Positions 1,555-64,000 of a stretch of DNA of 64,000 nucleotides are shown one piece after another. The position numbers and the translations under genes were made by a program. Source of the stretch: Nitrococcus mobilis Nb-231 (lineage in GTDB: Bacteria > Pseudomonadota > Gammaproteobacteria > Nitrococcales > Nitrococcaceae); contig NZ_CH672427.1 in assembly GCF_000153205.1 (NCBI RefSeq), positions 2,148,541-2,212,540 on the forward strand, in the 5' to 3' direction. Position 1 is the first letter of the stretch, and each line of letters starts with the position of its first letter. Below the pieces are notes generated by a model. That model was given only the letters and a program-made list of their open reading frames with translations, was not told the origin of the DNA and searched no databases.

Positions 1555-3681
1555 ATGGGACGTATCGTCAAGTGGCTAATGATCGCCATAACCGGTGTCC
1601 TCACACTGCTGATTATCGTCATAACAGCGGTGATAGTGCTAGTCGACCCCAACGATTACCGAGACGAGATCGAACGCGCGGTCGCTACTCAGACAGGCCG
1701 GGAACTTGCCATGGAAGGCGACTTAAAGTTGATGTTTTTTCCTTGGATCGGCTTACAGGTCAATAAAGTTCAGCTCGCCGATGCGCCGGGCTTCGGCCCG
1801 GCACCATTCCTCCAGGCGGATCATGCCCAGCTGGCGCTGAAGCTGTTGCCGCTATTGCAAGGCAATCTGGTGCTCGACACGCTCATGCTGAATCAGCCGC
1901 GGGTTCATTTGATTCGTAACGAGCAGGGTCTTGGCAATTGGCAGACATTCGGCCGTCCACCCCAAGCGCCGAAGCGCCCGCCGGAGCAGCCCGCGGTGGA
2001 TTTGGAACCGGGCGTGCAACCCCAAGCTCAACCCCTGCCGGCTATACTCCAGGCCGCCAGCCTGGCGGGCCTGCGGATTCGCGATGGCCGGGTAACCTGG
2101 GACGATCGACAATCCGGTCAACATGTGGTCATTACATCACTCAACACCACCGCGGAGGACATCCGGCTTGGCGCTCCGATCAGCATCGAGTCGGATTGGC
2201 AGGGCCAAATCAATGACGGCATGGATATCGGCGGTAAACTCACCGGCACCGTCATGGCGGACCCGCAGCTGCAGCACTTCGATGCCCGTGATCTCGACCT
2301 GGCGCTGAATGTTGCCGGGGTGGATATTCCCGGCGGTAAGCAACAGCTACGGTTGCGCGCCCAGGCGGCCGCCGATCTGGGGCAGGCCACCTACCGCCTT
2401 ACCGAGTTGCGCCTGGATGCGGCAGGTGTACAGATAACCGGTCAGCTATCGGCCCAGCAGGCCAAGGATGCTGTTACGGCAACGGGTCAACTCCAGATTC
2501 CGGAATTCAGCCCCAGGGAAGTTCTGCAGCGGCTCGGCATGGCTGTGCCGAATACCGACGACCCCGATGTTCTCAAGCGGGCCTCGGCCCAGACCGAGTT
2601 TGGCTACCATGGTGGAGCGCTCACGATCGAACCGCTCACCGTACGCATGGATGATTCCGTACTCACTGGGCAAGCTAAACTACGCAACTTCACCGGGCCG
2701 GCCGCCGACTTCGATCTGAGCCTGAACGGCATCGATGTCGATCGCTATCGACCACCGTCGCGCGAGGGCAAACAGGCCGCCGCCACGCCGGCGGAGACGG
2801 CGGCTGCCGGGGCCGGTCAGCTGCCGCTTACGACGCTGCGCAGCCTGGATCTCAACGGCCGCCTGCGCATCGGCACACTCAAAGTGAACGGCGCGACGAT
2901 CAGCGATGCCGACATGACGGTACATGCCAAAGACGGCCGGCTGCGGGTACACCCTCTGACCGCCGCCCTCTATGGCGGCACATACCGAGGCGATATGCAG
3001 CTCGACGCGACCGGCAAGACGCCTCGGATCGAGCTGAACGAACAGCTGAGCGGGATTCAGGCCGGACCGTTGCTGACCGATGTCGCCTCGTTCCAGAAGC
3101 TGCTCGGCACCACCGATTTCAACCTGCGGGCCACGACCCACGGCGCGGCACCTGAGGATTGGCTGCAAGCGCTCACCGGCTTGGCTCGTTTCACATTTCG
3201 GGATGGCACGGTCAAGGGCATCAATCTCGCCCAGGCCATCCGAGCGGCGTTGGCCCGCGCGCAGGGTAAACCCCCACCCCCGAGTGAAGGCCCGCTGCAA
3301 ACTGATTTCAGTGAGCTTGGCGGAACTTTGAACCTCGCTGGCGGTGTCGTGCGTAATACCGATTTCAGCGCCAAAAGCCCGCTGCTACGTATACAGGGGC
3401 AAGGCGTGGCCAACCTGCTCAAACAAACCGTGGACTATCGCCTCACAACCAAGATCGTCGGCACGCTTAAAGGCCAAGGCGGCCAGGATCTGGAGCAGTT
3501 GCGCGGTATACCGATCCCACTGCGCTTTACGGGCAAGCTCAGCGAGCCTCGCCTCACTGTGGACTTGGCGGGCCTGTTTAAAGAACGCTTCGAGCAGAAA
3601 CGAGAGGAACTCGAGGAAAAGGGTAAGAAAAAGCTGGAGCAAAAATTGGACCAGCAGCTGGAGCGGCTGTTCAATCGCTGA
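1555..3681 (+). CDS. AsmA family protein
   Basis: A 708-residue protein of the AsmA family, large envelope proteins (inner-membrane anchored, periplasmic beta-rich body) linked to outer-membrane assembly and lipid transport. An N-terminal membrane anchor (residues about 7-30) is followed by the typical [14 protein letters not shown] opening and [10 protein letters not shown]. The long central region is beta-rich, and the C-terminus is a Lys/Glu-rich coiled coil (about 675-708). GGAGAT precedes the ATG. The stop codon shares one base with the mutY start (TGATG), so the two are translationally coupled; asmA beside mutY is a recurrent arrangement in gammaproteobacteria. Confidence 0.85.
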
Positions 3682-4772
3682 TGGACGGGAACATAACCCC
3701 TTTGCCGGCCAGCGCGTCGGACCCGGATGGCTTCGCCCACGCGGTAATCGCCTGGCAGGCGCAGCATGGCCGCCGTGATCTGCCTTGGCAGAACCCGGCG
3801 ACCTCCTATCGGGTATGGGTCTCGGAGATTATGCTACAGCAGACCCAGGTGGCTACCGTCGTGCCCTATTTCCAGCGGTTCATGGCACGCTTTCCCACGT
3901 TAGCAGCACTTGCTGGCGCGGAGCTCGACGACGTGCTGCAGCTATGGACCGGGCTGGGGTATTACGCGCGCGCGCGCCATCTGCATCAGGCGGCCCGGCG
4001 CATCGATATCGATCACGGCGGGCGCTTTCCCACAACGATCGATCGACTCCTGGAACTACCCGGCATCGGTCGCTCCACCGCCGGCGCTATCCTCTCGTTG
4101 GCGCTCGGACAGCGCCATCCGATTCTGGATGGCAACGTCAAGCGCGTACTCGCTCGCTACCACGCCGTTCCCGGGTGGCCGGGTCGAGCCAAGGTCCAGC
4201 ACAGGCTATGGACGCTCGCGGAGCATCACACACCGCGGCAGCAAAATGCGGCCTACAATCAGGGCATGATGGATTTGGGGGCATCGTTGTGCATCCGGGT
4301 GCGGCCGCGCTGCGAGCTTTGCCCCCTAGCGGGGGGCTGCGCGGCCCGCCGCCTCGCTCGCCAGAACCAATTCCCCGAACCGCGCCCAGCGAAGGTCAAG
4401 CCCGTGCGTCAGACCCGGATGCTCCTGCTGCAGCAGGCTGGTCGGGTACTGCTGGTACGCCGCCCACCCGCCGGCGTCTGGGGTGGACTCTGGTGCCCAC
4501 CGCAGTGTGATCTCGAAGCCGATTATGTTGCCTTGTGCCGACGACAATTCGGGTTACGGATCGGTCCGGCACGGGCATGGCCGATGCGGCGACACACATT
4601 CAGCCACTTCCACCTGGAGATCCATCCGGTATATGCCCCAGTGCAAGCCGAGGACCCCAGCATCATGGATAGACCGGGACACCTCTGGTATAACGAGCAT
4701 TCGTCGAACCGCTGCGGGCTTGCGGCACCGGTGCGACAATTGCTGCAAGACCTGGAGGAAATACGAGCATGA
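3681..4772 (+). CDS. mutY: A/G-specific adenine DNA glycosylase MutY
   Basis: MutY removes adenine mispaired with 8-oxoguanine or guanine in base-excision repair. The 363 residues show the family features in order: LPWQ near the start, [13 protein letters not shown] (helix carrying the catalytic Glu), the helix-hairpin-helix [13 protein letters not shown] with the catalytic Asp in [10 protein letters not shown], and a four-cysteine iron-sulphur loop (CxxxxxxCxxC with a final Cys, about residues 206-222). A C-terminal NUDIX-like domain (about 235-355) recognises 8-oxoG. Length is normal. It overlaps asmA by one base and yggX by four, giving a three-gene operon with a DNA-repair and oxidative-stress theme. 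Confidence 0.95.
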
Positions 4773-59700: not shown

Positions 59701-59815
59701 TGCGAGCGCCGGCTCGACGACGCACGGCAACCCTCCGTCGCGCGCGGGCGGTAAAGCGCCGTTGCGTTGCCTTGACCGTGCAGCCATTCACGCCGTTACG
59801 TATTGACTACGCTTG

Positions 59816-60877
59816 ATGGGCTTGAAGTTCAAAGACGATATCAATATAGGCCGTCGGCAGTTTCTGTACCGGTTGGCCGGAGTGGCTGGTGGCCTGCTGG
59901 TCGCCACCTTGGATCAATCGAGCGCATGCGCCGCTTCACGCCGCGGCAGCGGCGCGGATGAAGGTGCGCCTGAGGCGTCTTTCTCCCAAGCCGACAATGC
60001 CTTTTCCACATACGAATTGGCTGCTGACGGCAGCCCGCTGATCGGCCGGGCCCATCGAGTAAGCGTATGTGCCGACGAGACTTTGCTCGATATCGGCCGG
60101 CGTTTCGATCTGGGCTATTGGGATATCGTTCTGGCGAATCCGGGGATCGATATCTGGATGCCCGGTGTCGGCACGCGGGCGCTCATACCCAGGAAATTCA
60201 TTCTCCCCCGCGCCCCCCGAGAGGGCATCGTCATAAATATCCCGGAGCTGAGGCTGTACTATTATCCGCCGGCCGCCAAGGGTAAAGCTCGGCAGGTCAT
60301 TACCCATCCGGTCGGCCTCGGCCGGCAGGACTGGGCCACACCACTCGGCCGCGCCTCGGTCGTTGAAAAAATCCCGCAGCCGACCTGGTATCCGCCGGCC
60401 TCCATTCGTGCCGAGCATGCCGCTCGAGGAGAAAAGTTGCCTGGGATCGTGCCGCCGGGCCCGAACAACCCGCTCGGCGAGTACGTGCTACTCCTAAGTA
60501 TTCCGGGCTATTTGATCCACGGCACCAATAAACCCTATGGCGTTGGAATGCGAGTATCTCACGGGTGCATACGGCTCTACCCGGAGGACATCGCCCGCTT
60601 TTTCGCTCGAGTGAGCCGGAAAACGCCGGTGCATATCGTCGACCAGCCCTACAAACTCGCTTGGCACCAAGGTGAACTTTGGCTCGAAGTGCAGCCATCG
60701 CCTGAGGCGGATGACTTCACCAGTATGAACCGGGAGCGACATCTGGCCATGCTCGCGCGACTACACCAGGAAGTGGAGCACACGGCTCACGCCGCCGGCT
60801 ACACTGTCGCCCACCGCGAATTCGATTTGCAGTTGCGCCGCTTCTCGGGCGTGCCCGAGCCAGTGCCCCTCATATGA
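59816..60877 (+). CDS. L,D-transpeptidase with LysM (YkuD family), Tat-type signal
   Basis: A 353-residue exported enzyme. The N-terminus NIGRRQFLYRLAGVAGGLLV looks like a twin-arginine signal peptide. A LysM-like domain (ETLLDIGRRFDLGYWDIVLANPG, about 85-108) binds peptidoglycan. The catalytic YkuD domain ends in GYLIHGTNKPYG and MRVSHGCIRLYPEDI, with the nucleophilic Cys in SHGCIR. Such enzymes make 3-3 crosslinks or attach lipoprotein to peptidoglycan. A TTG at 59813 directly before the ATG is not needed. Confidence 0.88.
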   Translation: MGLKFKDDINIGRRQFLYRLAGVAGGLLVATLDQSSACAASRRGSGADEGAPEASFSQADNAFSTYELAADGSPLIGRAHRVSVCADETLLDIGRRFDLGYWDIVLANPGIDIWMPGVGTRALIPRKFILPRAPREGIVINIPELRLYYYPPAAKGKARQVITHPVGLGRQDWATPLGRASVVEKIPQPTWYPPASIRAEHAARGEKLPGIVPPGPNNPLGEYVLLLSIPGYLIHGTNKPYGVGMRVSHGCIRLYPEDIARFFARVSRKTPVHIVDQPYKLAWHQGELWLEVQPSPEADDFTSMNRERHLAMLARLHQEVEHTAHAAGYTVAHREFDLQLRRFSGVPEPVPLI

Positions 60878-60958: not shown

Positions 60959-61837
60959 ATGGCTTGGCTCCCGCTCGCCTTACTTAGCGCGTTCAGCCTG
61001 GCTTCGGCGGACGCCTGCTCGAAAAAATTCCTGCCCAGCTACCGTGCCCGCGAAATGGTGCTGGTGCGATTTGCCTATTCCGCGCTGTTATTGGCGCCAT
61101 TGCTTTATTTCAGCCCACTGCCGGCGGTACCACCGGCGTTTTGGGGTTGGCTTGCGCTGGCCTTGCCGCTGGAAATCCTCGCCATGCTGCTCTATATGCA
61201 GGCGATCCGTGACAGCCCGCTCTCGCTCACCCTGCCTTATCTCGCGTTTACCCCCGTATTCACAACCTTGGCGGGTTATCTGCTGCTGGGCGAGCGGATT
61301 TCGACACAGGGCTTGCTCGGTATCGTCCTGGTCGTCAGCGGTGCTTACCTCCTCAATCTAGAGGCCTCCGGCACACCCGGGAGAGATCACCTGAGCAAGC
61401 CTTTGCGCGCCATTGCGAACGAGCGCGGCTCCCGTATGATGCTCGCAGTGGCGATTATTTACGGATTAACCTCGGTGATCGGCAAGATCGAGCTGCAGTA
61501 CGCCTCGCCTTGGAGCTTCGCGGCCATCTACTTCGTCTTGCTGGGCCTGTTGAGCCTGGTCTTGTTCGCTTGCTCGAGCCCTCGGCCGCGGGTACTGCAC
61601 GTGCTCGGGCGCAAACCGGCGATTCACCTATTGATCGGTGGCCTGTTCACGGCCATGATCGTCACTCACTTCATGGCGCTCGAGCAGGTCGCGACGGCTT
61701 ATATGATCTCGGCTAAGCGCACCAGCATCCTCTTCGGCATGCTCTACGGCGCACTGCTATTCGGTGAGCAAGGCTTGCTCAGACGCTTGACCGCCGGCGC
61801 CCTTATGGTGGTAGGGGTAACCCTTCTCGCTGTTTAG
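60959..61837 (+). CDS. EamA/DMT-family transporter
   Basis: A 292-residue inner-membrane protein with about ten predicted helices in two EamA repeats. The second repeat starts near MMLAVAIIYGLTSVIGKIEL. LGERISTQGLLGIVLVVSGAYLL (first repeat) and LFGEQGLLRRLTAGALMVVGVTLL (second) are the paired EamA endings. These transporters export metabolites; the substrate cannot be read from the sequence. The ribosome-binding site is weak. Confidence 0.85.
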   Translation: MAWLPLALLSAFSLASADACSKKFLPSYRAREMVLVRFAYSALLLAPLLYFSPLPAVPPAFWGWLALALPLEILAMLLYMQAIRDSPLSLTLPYLAFTPVFTTLAGYLLLGERISTQGLLGIVLVVSGAYLLNLEASGTPGRDHLSKPLRAIANERGSRMMLAVAIIYGLTSVIGKIELQYASPWSFAAIYFVLLGLLSLVLFACSSPRPRVLHVLGRKPAIHLLIGGLFTAMIVTHFMALEQVATAYMISAKRTSILFGMLYGALLFGEQGLLRRLTAGALMVVGVTLLAV

Positions 61838-61886
61838 TAGCGAGAAGCATACTCTCGGGTTGGCCGGCGACAGCCCTACACGTTCG

Positions 61887-62102
61887 TTAATCGACGGCCA
61901 CCATGACATGGGAGGCTTTGATGACGGCATAGCAGGTTTTCCCCAGCGCTAGGCCGAGCTTGTTGGCGGAATCCTTCGAGATGATGGAGACGACCTTATC
62001 ACCGCCCGGCAACTCGATGACGACCTCCGTGTTGACGGCTCCGACGTTGACATCTACGACTTTACCCTTGAGGGCATTCCGAGCGCTGATGTTCATCTGC
62101 AT
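61887..62102 (-). CDS. mop: Molybdopterin/molybdate-binding protein (Mop/TOBE)
   Basis: A 71-residue single TOBE domain: MNISARNALKGKVVDVNVGAVNTEV then a central KDSANKLGLALGKTCYAVIKASHVMVAV. Such proteins oligomerise and bind molybdate or tungstate in the cytoplasm. AAGGAC lies ahead of the ATG. It follows modA by 37 bp on the same strand, in one molybdate-controlled operon. Confidence 0.9.
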   Translation of the reverse strand: MQMNISARNALKGKVVDVNVGAVNTEVVIELPGGDKVVSIISKDSANKLGLALGKTCYAVIKASHVMVAVD

Positions 62103-62139
62103 GACAGTTTGTCCTTTTTAAGGTCTACTTTTGATAAAC

Positions 62140-62961
62140 CTACTCGGCGACGACCACCCGATGCGGCTTGTTTATGCCCGCAGGCACCTCATAGCCGTAG
62201 GATTGAATTATCTGGCCTGCCCGCGGTCCACGGATGAACTCCAGGAAGGCTCGGGCCACCGGTATGTCCTGAATCAAGACGGCCTGCTGAACGATGGGCT
62301 CATAGAATGTGGAGGGCACCGGCCAATAGCTGCCCTGCACGGCCTGACCGGGCCGCTGGATCTGCGAAAGCGCCATGAAGCCGAGCGACACACTGCCACT
62401 CGCGATCAACTGGTGCGTCTGCCCGATGTTCTGCCCCATCACTAACCGATCGCCCCGCTGCAGGGTTTCCCAAAGGCCGAGTTTCCGCAATGTCTGCTGC
62501 GCGGCCAGGCCGTAGGGGGCGAGTTTTGGGTTAGCGAGAGCGATGTGCTCATAGCCACCTTCGCGCAACACATTGCCATTGCCGAGCATATAGTCCGGCT
62601 TTGTACTCCACAGCACGAGCTTGCCCTCGGCATAGGTGAAGCGACTGCCCGGCACGATGGCACCGTCTTGCTCCAGGCGCCTCGGGCGCTCCACATCGGC
62701 GGCGAAGAAGGCATCGAACGGCGCGCCGTGACGAATCTGGGCGTAGAACAGGCCCGTCGAACCAAAGCTGAGCTTGATCCGGTCACCGGTTTCCTGCTCG
62801 AATGCGGCGACGAGTTGCTTGGCGGGCGCCTGAAAGTTGGAGGCCACGGCGATTTTCGCCACGCCGGCCCAGGCCGCACCGTGGCCGAGTAAAATCACGC
62901 CGACCACCCAGGGGACCACACCCGCCCAGTTCCTCAACCGGTGGCCCCAAAAGCCTCTCAT
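62140..62961 (-). CDS. modA: Molybdate-binding protein ModA
   Basis: A 273-residue periplasmic substrate-binding protein. A signal peptide (about 1-32, with WVVGVILLGHGAAWA ending AWA-G) precedes IAVASNFQAPAKQL and FSFGST-like LSFGSTGLFYAQI. The ligand-binding blocks are GAPFDAFFAADVERPRRL and ALANPKLAPYGLAAQ. GGGAGA lies 6 nt before ATG 62961. The transmembrane (ModB) and ATPase (ModC) genes are not next to it, which is unusual; they must be elsewhere if uptake works. Two ModE-type sites lie upstream. Confidence 0.9.
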   Translation of the reverse strand: MRGFWGHRLRNWAGVVPWVVGVILLGHGAAWAGVAKIAVASNFQAPAKQLVAAFEQETGDRIKLSFGSTGLFYAQIRHGAPFDAFFAADVERPRRLEQDGAIVPGSRFTYAEGKLVLWSTKPDYMLGNGNVLREGGYEHIALANPKLAPYGLAAQQTLRKLGLWETLQRGDRLVMGQNIGQTHQLIASGSVSLGFMALSQIQRPGQAVQGSYWPVPSTFYEPIVQQAVLIQDIPVARAFLEFIRGPRAGQIIQSYGYEVPAGINKPHRVVVAE

Positions 62962-63024
62962 ATTGTTCTCCCATGTTGTCAGGTTCGGGGGGATGTGCTG
63001 AAACACGGGCGCATTGCGCCCCAC

Positions 63025-63048
63025 CGTTATGTGCCATTATTCATAGCG
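63025..63048 (-). promoter_or_regulatory. ModE-type operator, promoter-distal copy (closer to modA)
   Basis: CGTTAT at 63025-63030 and ATAGCG at 63043-63048 with 12 bp between, the same half-sites and spacing as the E. coli modA ModE site (CGTTAT-N12-ATAACG). It lies about 64-87 bp upstream of the modA start. Confidence 0.65.
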
Positions 63049-63049
63049 T

Positions 63050-63073
63050 CGTTATATTCTATATTGCATAGCG
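63050..63073 (-). promoter_or_regulatory. ModE-type operator overlapping the modA promoter
   Basis: CGTTAT at 63050-63055 and ATAGCG at 63068-63073, again with 12 bp between, one base from the first copy. It covers the -10 box of the predicted modA promoter, so molybdate-loaded ModE would block RNA polymerase here. Confidence 0.7.
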
Positions 63074-63082
63074 CCATGTCAA
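63056..63082 (-). promoter_or_regulatory. Predicted modA promoter
   Basis: On the minus strand, TTGACA (63082-63077) is a perfect -35 box; TAGAAT (63061-63056) is the best -10 candidate with 15 bp spacing, a little short. It lies about 95-120 bp upstream of modA and is overlapped by the second ModE-type site. Confidence 0.5.
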
Positions 63083-63314
63083 GCACCCGGCTAGGTGCAG
63101 CGAACGCAGTCACCCACGTTGATCGGCCTGAGACCCTTCGCGAGGTCGCGAATCATAGCGGCTGGCTGGTAACAAGTGCCGATCCGGCATCGCCTTGCCC
63201 TATGCAAGATATCGGCTCGGAAGTACGGGTGAAGGGAATGCAATTGCCCGTCCGCTACGGAGCTGCATCCGCGCCAAACGGACGCTTCCGTAGCTCGGGC
63301 CGAGGGCACACCGC
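63083..63314. other. Intergenic region, no gene seen
   Basis: About 230 bp upstream of the modA promoter and downstream of the crotonase gene. No terminator or small gene is supported. Confidence 0.35.
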
Positions 63315-64000
63315 TTAGCGATGCTTAAATTTCGGCGCGCGTTTAGCCACAAAGGCGGCCATGCCTTCCTTATGATCCTCGGTAGCGAAGGTGGACTGAA
63401 ACAGCCGGCGTTCCAATTGCAGCCCTTCCCGCAGCCCGGTTTCGAAGGCCTCGTTGACGGCCTCCTTGATCATCATCGTTATGGGCAGCGAATGCGAGGC
63501 GATGGTGGCCGCCGTCTGTTGCGCCTCCGCCAATAGCTCGGCCGCCGGCACGACCCGGGAAACTAGCCCGGCACGCTCGGCCTCCGCGGCATCCATCAGC
63601 CGCCCGGTCAGGCACAACTCCATAGCCTTCGACTTGCCCACCGCCCGTGCCAATCGCTGCGTACCACCGGCACCGGGCATCGTGCCGATGGTGATCTCCG
63701 GCTGGCCGAACCGCGCGGTATCGGCGGCGATGATCAGATCACAGGCCATCGCCAGCTCGCAACCGCCGCCCAGCGCATAGCCGGCCACCGCGGCGATGAT
63801 GGGCTTGCGCGCCCGCCGCGCGGCGCTCCAGCCTGCGGCGCTGGGGAAATCGCGGCGGAACACGTCAAAGAAGTTCTGCGCTTGCAGCTCCTTGATATCG
63901 GCGCCGGCGGCAAACGCCTTATCACTGCCGGTGATCACGAGACAGCCGATCCCATCGTCGCCATCGAACTCGGCGATGGCCGTCCCGAGTTCGTCCATGA
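63315..64000 (-). CDS. Enoyl-CoA hydratase/isomerase, 5' end outside the window
   Basis: At least 227 residues of a crotonase. [12 protein letters not shown] supplies the oxyanion-hole segment; [20 protein letters not shown] and [22 protein letters not shown] hold the second oxyanion residue and the catalytic Glu pair. The open frame continues to the window edge; about 35 N-terminal residues (the LNRPxALNAL segment) should lie beyond. It could be paaF (2,3-dehydroadipyl-CoA hydratase) given the paa genes nearby, but this is only suggested by the neighbourhood. Confidence 0.88.

Follow-up and report, generated by a model that had tools for sequence, protein, structure and literature searches.

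The modA–mop locus and its two probable operators

Two genes for molybdate-binding proteins lie on the minus strand of the window, the whole 64,000-nt stretch of DNA that was analysed. The first, modA (62140–62961), encodes a periplasmic molybdate-binding protein (TIGR01256, 187.7 bits against a cut-off of 62.5) that matches the structures 7t4z and 1atg and is the single such match in the genome to which the window belongs (G000; 3.62 Mb, 9 contigs, completeness 100, contamination 0.19). The second, mop (61887–62102), encodes a 71-aa single-domain, molbindin-type molybdate-binding protein (TIGR00638, 79.4 bits, cut-off 55), with 1h9j as its best structural match (95.9 bits). Both scores are above the family cut-offs and confirm the identities proposed in the first-pass annotation of the window. 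Since mop follows modA by 37 bp on the same strand, and the modA–mop order is kept in two congeners (G002 and G004), the two genes are likely to share a single transcript. No terminator after mop was found in 61700–63400, where shuffled sequences give a mean of 1.7. Near these genes, a plus-strand frame at 59813–60877 with an L,D-transpeptidase domain (PF03734) sits beside an EamA-type transporter gene (60959–61837).

Pattern matching across the window located two exact CGTTAT-N12-ATAGCG palindromes upstream of modA, neither assigned to a strand: a 24-bp ModE-type site at 63050–63073 (operator O1, 16/16 consensus positions) and a second at 63025–63048 (operator O2, 15/16 positions). Their starts are 25 bp apart, exactly as first described, and a single base separates them. 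Both sites also conform to the ModE-operator palindrome CGNTAT-N12-ATANCG. Their half-site spacing, which the first-pass annotation took to be identical to that of E. coli, is indeed that of the E. coli-type ModE consensus ATCGNTATATA-N6-TATATANCGAT printed in PMC545781.

Read on the minus strand in the direction of modA, the region consists of TTGACA (63082–63077), 3 bp, O1 (63073–63050), 1 bp, O2 (63048–63025) and another 63 bp before modA begins at 62961. The TTGACA (63077–63082, minus strand) is a perfect −35 element, read directly, that ends 3 bp upstream of O1. A spacer of 17 bp would place the −10 element at GAATAT (63054–63059, minus strand), inside O1, which on this assignment occupies most of the −35/−10 spacer and covers the candidate −10. 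Transcription would then start near 63047, at the edge of O2, which would overlie the start from approximately +1 to +24. The earlier description of an operator copy over the −10 box of a promoter with a perfect TTGACA holds for the −35 element and for the position of the candidate −10; the −10 itself is weak, as GAATAT agrees with TATAAT at only 3/6 positions and the TTGACA promoter was not reported by a consensus promoter scan of the region. That scan gave one promoter-like match, GTGCCA-N16-TATATT (63031–63058, plus strand; 0.4 expected), which runs across the operators and points away from modA. Among the exact TTGACA-N3-operator modules of the genus, described below, the −10 position reads NAAYAT in 10 of 11, but four of these six positions already belong to the operator consensus; the A at the second position, present in 11/11, is the only independent hint of a −10. 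A known RNA switch upstream of modA was also sought and ruled out, as 61800–63400 gave no match to Rfam at E values up to 1.

The chance expectation for exact CGTTAT-N12-ATAGCG is a mean of 0.01 per window (100 dinucleotide-preserving shuffles), and none of the 100 shuffled windows held two exact matches. This bears out the view that chance is unlikely for the window, whereas the motif is not enriched in the genome as a whole: counts against a reversed-pattern control were 4 vs 4 for the motif, 3 vs 3 for a tighter pattern and 24 vs 29 when up to two mismatches were allowed. Three of the four loose genome-wide matches are the modA sites and a site before modB. The fourth, at C1:3363728, was rejected as an operator; on each strand it is enclosed by a long open frame (356 and 372 codons), and it was taken as chance. 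The case for operators rests on position and conservation.

A split transporter and a ModE-like regulator

The first-pass annotation had noted that the modA–mop operon carries no modB or modC, and neither gene was found beside modA–mop; both are present elsewhere in the genome. One match to modB exceeds the family cut-off (243.2 bits, the three others scoring 23.5 to 37.2), and modC, read at the modB locus, follows directly (405.6 bits, also over cut-off). Together with modE they map to around C1:2.86 Mb, at a distance of 647 kb from modA. A third operator, CGCTATGTAAAAAAGAATATAGCG, begins 3 bp after its own TTGACA and ends 18 bp before the modB start. The proposal that molybdate controls a binding-storage pair rather than a full transporter therefore fails, because modB and modC are found behind the same kind of operator. 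ModA, ModB and ModC are all present and all over cut-off, and what is absent is the single-operon arrangement, which is usual for ModABC but not strictly defining. By gene content and predicted control, modA–mop and modBC are the two halves of a divided ModABC transporter, and a ModE-type operator precedes each of them. Among the best 80 public modA loci listed, 77 have a modB match in the sequence fetched around modA; the three exceptions are L092 (same genus), L094 (with only 106 bases left downstream) and L109. The genome also has uses for molybdenum, since it encodes two NarG-size PF00384 frames (1,221 and 1,220 aa, the first classified as narG with 1455.8 bits) and an FdhF/YdeP-family oxidoreductase (632.4 bits, cut-off 582.15).

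A single ModE-type HTH match was found in the genome (L014:9046–9855, minus strand), in a gene convergent to modBC. Its TIGR00637 score is 97.5 bits against a cut-off of 98.5 (95.3 in a second classification). The same frame holds two Mop domains, for which TIGR00638 is passed (137.1 bits, cut-off 55), and the alignment with E. coli ModE (1b9m/1o7l) spans residues 21–266 (142 bits for 1b9m). An HTH protein with Mop domains is encoded in the same genome as the operators, then, but it stays below the curated ModE family cut-offs, including that of the E. coli-type equivalog NF007957 (184.6 bits against 369). We therefore call it ModE-like and not an E. coli equivalog. No site of at least 14/16 precedes modE in L014. 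The genome searches suggested by the first-pass annotation thus returned all three gene types (modE, modB and modC) and, as a further motif copy, the operator before modB. Lack of a ModE homologue had been named as one ground for abandoning the reading, and the outcome was the opposite: a ModE-like HTH protein with two Mop domains that aligns with 1b9m.

Conservation of the operators and further candidate targets

The genus set comprised five genomes (G000–G004), with modB of the congeners seen in stretches fetched around sites. ModA of this type occurs in three of the five (G000, G002 and G004; 79–81% identity), while G001 and G003 carry other ModA-type proteins that are 26–45% identical. In G002 both operators are 16/16 at a distance of 25 bp, and G004 keeps the same 25-bp register with O1 at 16/16 and O2 degenerate at 13/16; both genomes have TTGACA 3 bp upstream of the operator at modA. 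In the three-genome alignment of the modA promoter, the O1 core (10/10) and TTGACA (6/6) are identical, compared with 118/192 positions (0.61) outside the operators; identity of the O2 core is 8/10. The modB promoter of the same genomes, which has a single operator in each, is likewise identical in core (10/10) and TTGACA (6/6) against 70/197 (0.36) outside. Sites placed over molybdate-uptake promoters are thus conserved at both modA and modB in all three genomes. Absence of conservation was the other finding that would have told against the first-pass reading; the sites are in fact kept in the two congeners that carry this modA. G001 has no modA match at this locus, and its mop retains a 16/16 operator behind TTGACT. 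Counts of tighter-pattern sites against the control were 11 vs 0 in G003 and 4 vs 0 in G001.

The fixed distance between TTGACA and operator was examined for 31 sites of at least 14/16 in genus loci, taken in both orientations (62 rows), with at most one mismatch in TTGACA and gaps of 0–8. TTGACA stood at gap 3 in 13/62 site-orientations (12 of them perfect) and never at the eight remaining gaps; uniform bases would give approximately 0.3 at any given gap by our own arithmetic. These 13 cases represent some six or seven different promoters, as modA/mop, modB and a 345-aa gene recur, and come from loci selected for carrying the motif. The exact TTGACA-N3-operator module is present in 4/5 genus genomes vs 0/49 others of the order, with no reversed-pattern match, and in 0/397 others sampled across the phylum (G001–G004 lying outside that sample). 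A tandem pair with 0–30 bp between sites was absent from all 368 further genomes of the class that were sampled (again with G001–G004 outside).

Public modA loci were scanned up to 500 bp upstream of modA (only about 115 bp for L102 and L148). Of the best 80 listed, 41 have a site of at least 13/16 and 34 one of at least 15/16, against a shuffled mean of 0.041 per locus. The remaining 39/80 lack a site of at least 13/16, so by no means every modA is under ModE control. TTGACA at gap 3 was seen for none of the 34 operators of at least 15/16 upstream of modA in 33 of the loci L093–L171. Among the best 80, one locus repeats the 25-bp pair, and this locus (L092) belongs to the same genus. Two 15/16 sites at a distance of 37 bp occur in Zobellella taiwanensis (L154), and apart from these two loci the public modA loci listed hold at most one site of at least 15/16.

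Two further genes in the genus lie behind such sites. A one-mismatch site at C1:2090347 in G000 (L080:1501–1524) ends 8 bp short of the probable start codon of a porin-like, Alginate_exp-family gene (L080:86–1480, C1 near 2,088,900–2,090,400; 164.3 bits). The site recurs at the same place in G002 (15/16) and G004 (16/16), downstream of a conserved TTGAAT-N17-TATTCT. Its core is identical at 8/10 positions vs 89/176 (0.51) outside, a weaker contrast than at modA and modB. The start codon is placed by alignment: the frame runs through the site in G000 and G004 and begins inside it in G002. No site of at least 13/16 was found at a second G004 porin copy (L179) or at the G003 copy (L176, a locus cut by the contig end), and none of the other genera sampled from the family yielded the porin-like protein. 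The conserved operator makes the porin-like gene, probably, a third ModE-regulated unit; its product is a candidate molybdate channel. The other gene encodes a protein of 345–348 aa, preceded in G001 (L065:2410–3767, O1 14/16) and G003 (L072:392–1739) by a 25-bp tandem pair behind TTGACA. The protein appears exported by eye; neither copy has a Pfam match, and the G001 copy has no NCBIfam or PDB match.

Several other loci of the congeners carry ModE-type sites. In G001, a 15/16 site lies upstream of two genes (L062:967–2733), the first matching the molybdenum storage protein subunit beta (2ogx_B, 359.5 bits) and the second encoding an AA_kinase-family protein, probably the partner subunit. In G003, sites lie beside ExbB, ExbD and FecCD genes in L075, which resembles a TonB-type uptake cluster and includes a short HTH frame (3279–3722) that matches the DNA-binding part of ModE (35%). 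Another ModA in G001 (45% identity) stands behind two CGATAT-type palindromes (14/16) in L031 (C330). That locus also has a frame matching the ModE DNA-binding part only, and it perhaps uses a second signal type.

Predicted regulation and comparison with known systems

ModE is a well-established repressor of molybdate uptake. The layout and conservation described above point with high probability to the palindromes being operators of the ModE-like regulator, which would repress both modA–mop and modBC at high molybdate. With plentiful molybdate in the cytoplasm, ModE dimers carrying it would occupy O1 and O2 and shut RNA polymerase out of a sigma-70 promoter that has its −35 element ending 3 bp ahead of O1 and its −10 within that operator; modA–mop would thereby be repressed. 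The same regulator would repress modBC through one operator placed alike, such that both halves of the transporter would follow one signal. In the absence of molybdate ModE would leave, allowing expression of modA–mop, modBC and, probably, the porin-like gene. O1, over the promoter elements, could suffice alone, as at modBC, and the most likely role for O2 would be to tighten or steepen repression of modA. The two centres are 25 bp, or approximately 2.4 helical turns, apart, so two dimers would not sit on the same face of the DNA and direct contact between them is not assured. The sequences, their positions and conservation and the presence of ModE-like, modB and modC genes are observations; binding, repression, the start site and the contribution of O2 are all features that we infer from sequence.

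The strongest alternative concerns O2 only, and holds that O1 alone is functional while O2 is a fading duplicate without a function of its own. We consider this doubtful, though a reading to be reckoned with. The decay of O2 to 13/16 in G004 indicates that it is not strictly required, modBC manages with a single operator in all three genomes, and the public modA loci listed, bar L092 and L154, show at most one strong site (at least 15/16); yet O2 is intact in G000 and G002, its core is largely kept across the three genomes, and the same 25-bp pair also stands before the unrelated 345–348 aa gene in G001 and G003. Improbable by comparison is the idea that ModE binds these sites but acts chiefly as an activator, or as a roadblock downstream of an unmapped promoter. 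The weak −10 and the silence of the consensus scan on the TTGACA promoter are compatible with it, as is the porin operator, which lies downstream of a different conserved promoter-like sequence and shows that operator position varies. A TTGACA exactly 3 bp from the operator at some six or seven promoters, fully conserved at modA and modB, fits promoter occlusion. That the sites are chance palindromes in an AT-rich promoter, or belong to another regulator, is hardly credible: genome-wide counts do not exceed the control, but two exact copies arose in no shuffled window, three of the four loose matches fall at modA and modB, and the core is kept in two congeners.

Repression through O1 and O2 can be extended, tentatively and with less than even confidence, to a genus-wide ModE regulon spanning the envelope, in which an Alginate_exp-type porin would serve as molybdate entry, followed by ModA and Mop and by ModBC, with the double operator sharpening the modA switch. 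The porin-like gene site offers a testable candidate for molybdate passage across the outer membrane. What is less usual here is, first, a fixed TTGACA-N3-operator module, in some cases followed at 25 bp by a second operator, which is shared by several genes of this genus and was seen in no other genus sampled and, second, a transporter whose halves are linked by operator type and not by operon. The arrangement also lets single and double ModE operators be compared, in a natural setting, on one promoter design.

ModE regulons are described in the available portions of PMC2700814 and PMC9542535, whereas the available portion of PMC10102598 holds nothing on ModE sites. Among the matches listed from the open-licence literature, there was no report of tandem ModE operators, nor of a ModE-controlled outer-membrane molybdate channel or ModE-linked porin, which is no proof of novelty. 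Tandem operators of a metal regulator do have a counterpart in the FUR boxes before the hypothetical porin psp (PMC545781), where two operators likewise precede one gene, although regulator and metal differ. Compared with the E. coli-type ModE operator as presented in PMC545781, the sites analysed here are alike in the 24-bp palindrome, the half-site spacing, the regulator with HTH and two Mop domains and the position at the modA promoter; they differ in that two operators abut, O1 follows TTGACA by 3 bp with the candidate −10 inside it, and modA stands apart from modBC. The split layout is shared with Desulfovibrio vulgaris, in which modA and modBC are separate units, each with a predicted ModE site (PMC545781, Table 6). 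However, the signal there is CGGTCACG-N14-CGTGACCG and ModE is a single DNA-binding domain (PMC545781), whereas here the signal is of E. coli type and Mop domains are present. In Azotobacter vinelandii, abundant Mo leads ModE (ModE1/ModE2) to act on a promoter motif and repress the high-affinity molybdate transporter (PMC9542535), a circuit like the one predicted here; its modE is the first gene of modEA1B1C1, whereas the modE described here is convergent to modBC, with modA elsewhere. The regulator and the kind of control are known; what stands out is the doubling of the operator, its constant 3-bp distance from the −35 element and the porin-like target. The fused promoter–double-operator and this target have the look of a local variant of the ModE theme.
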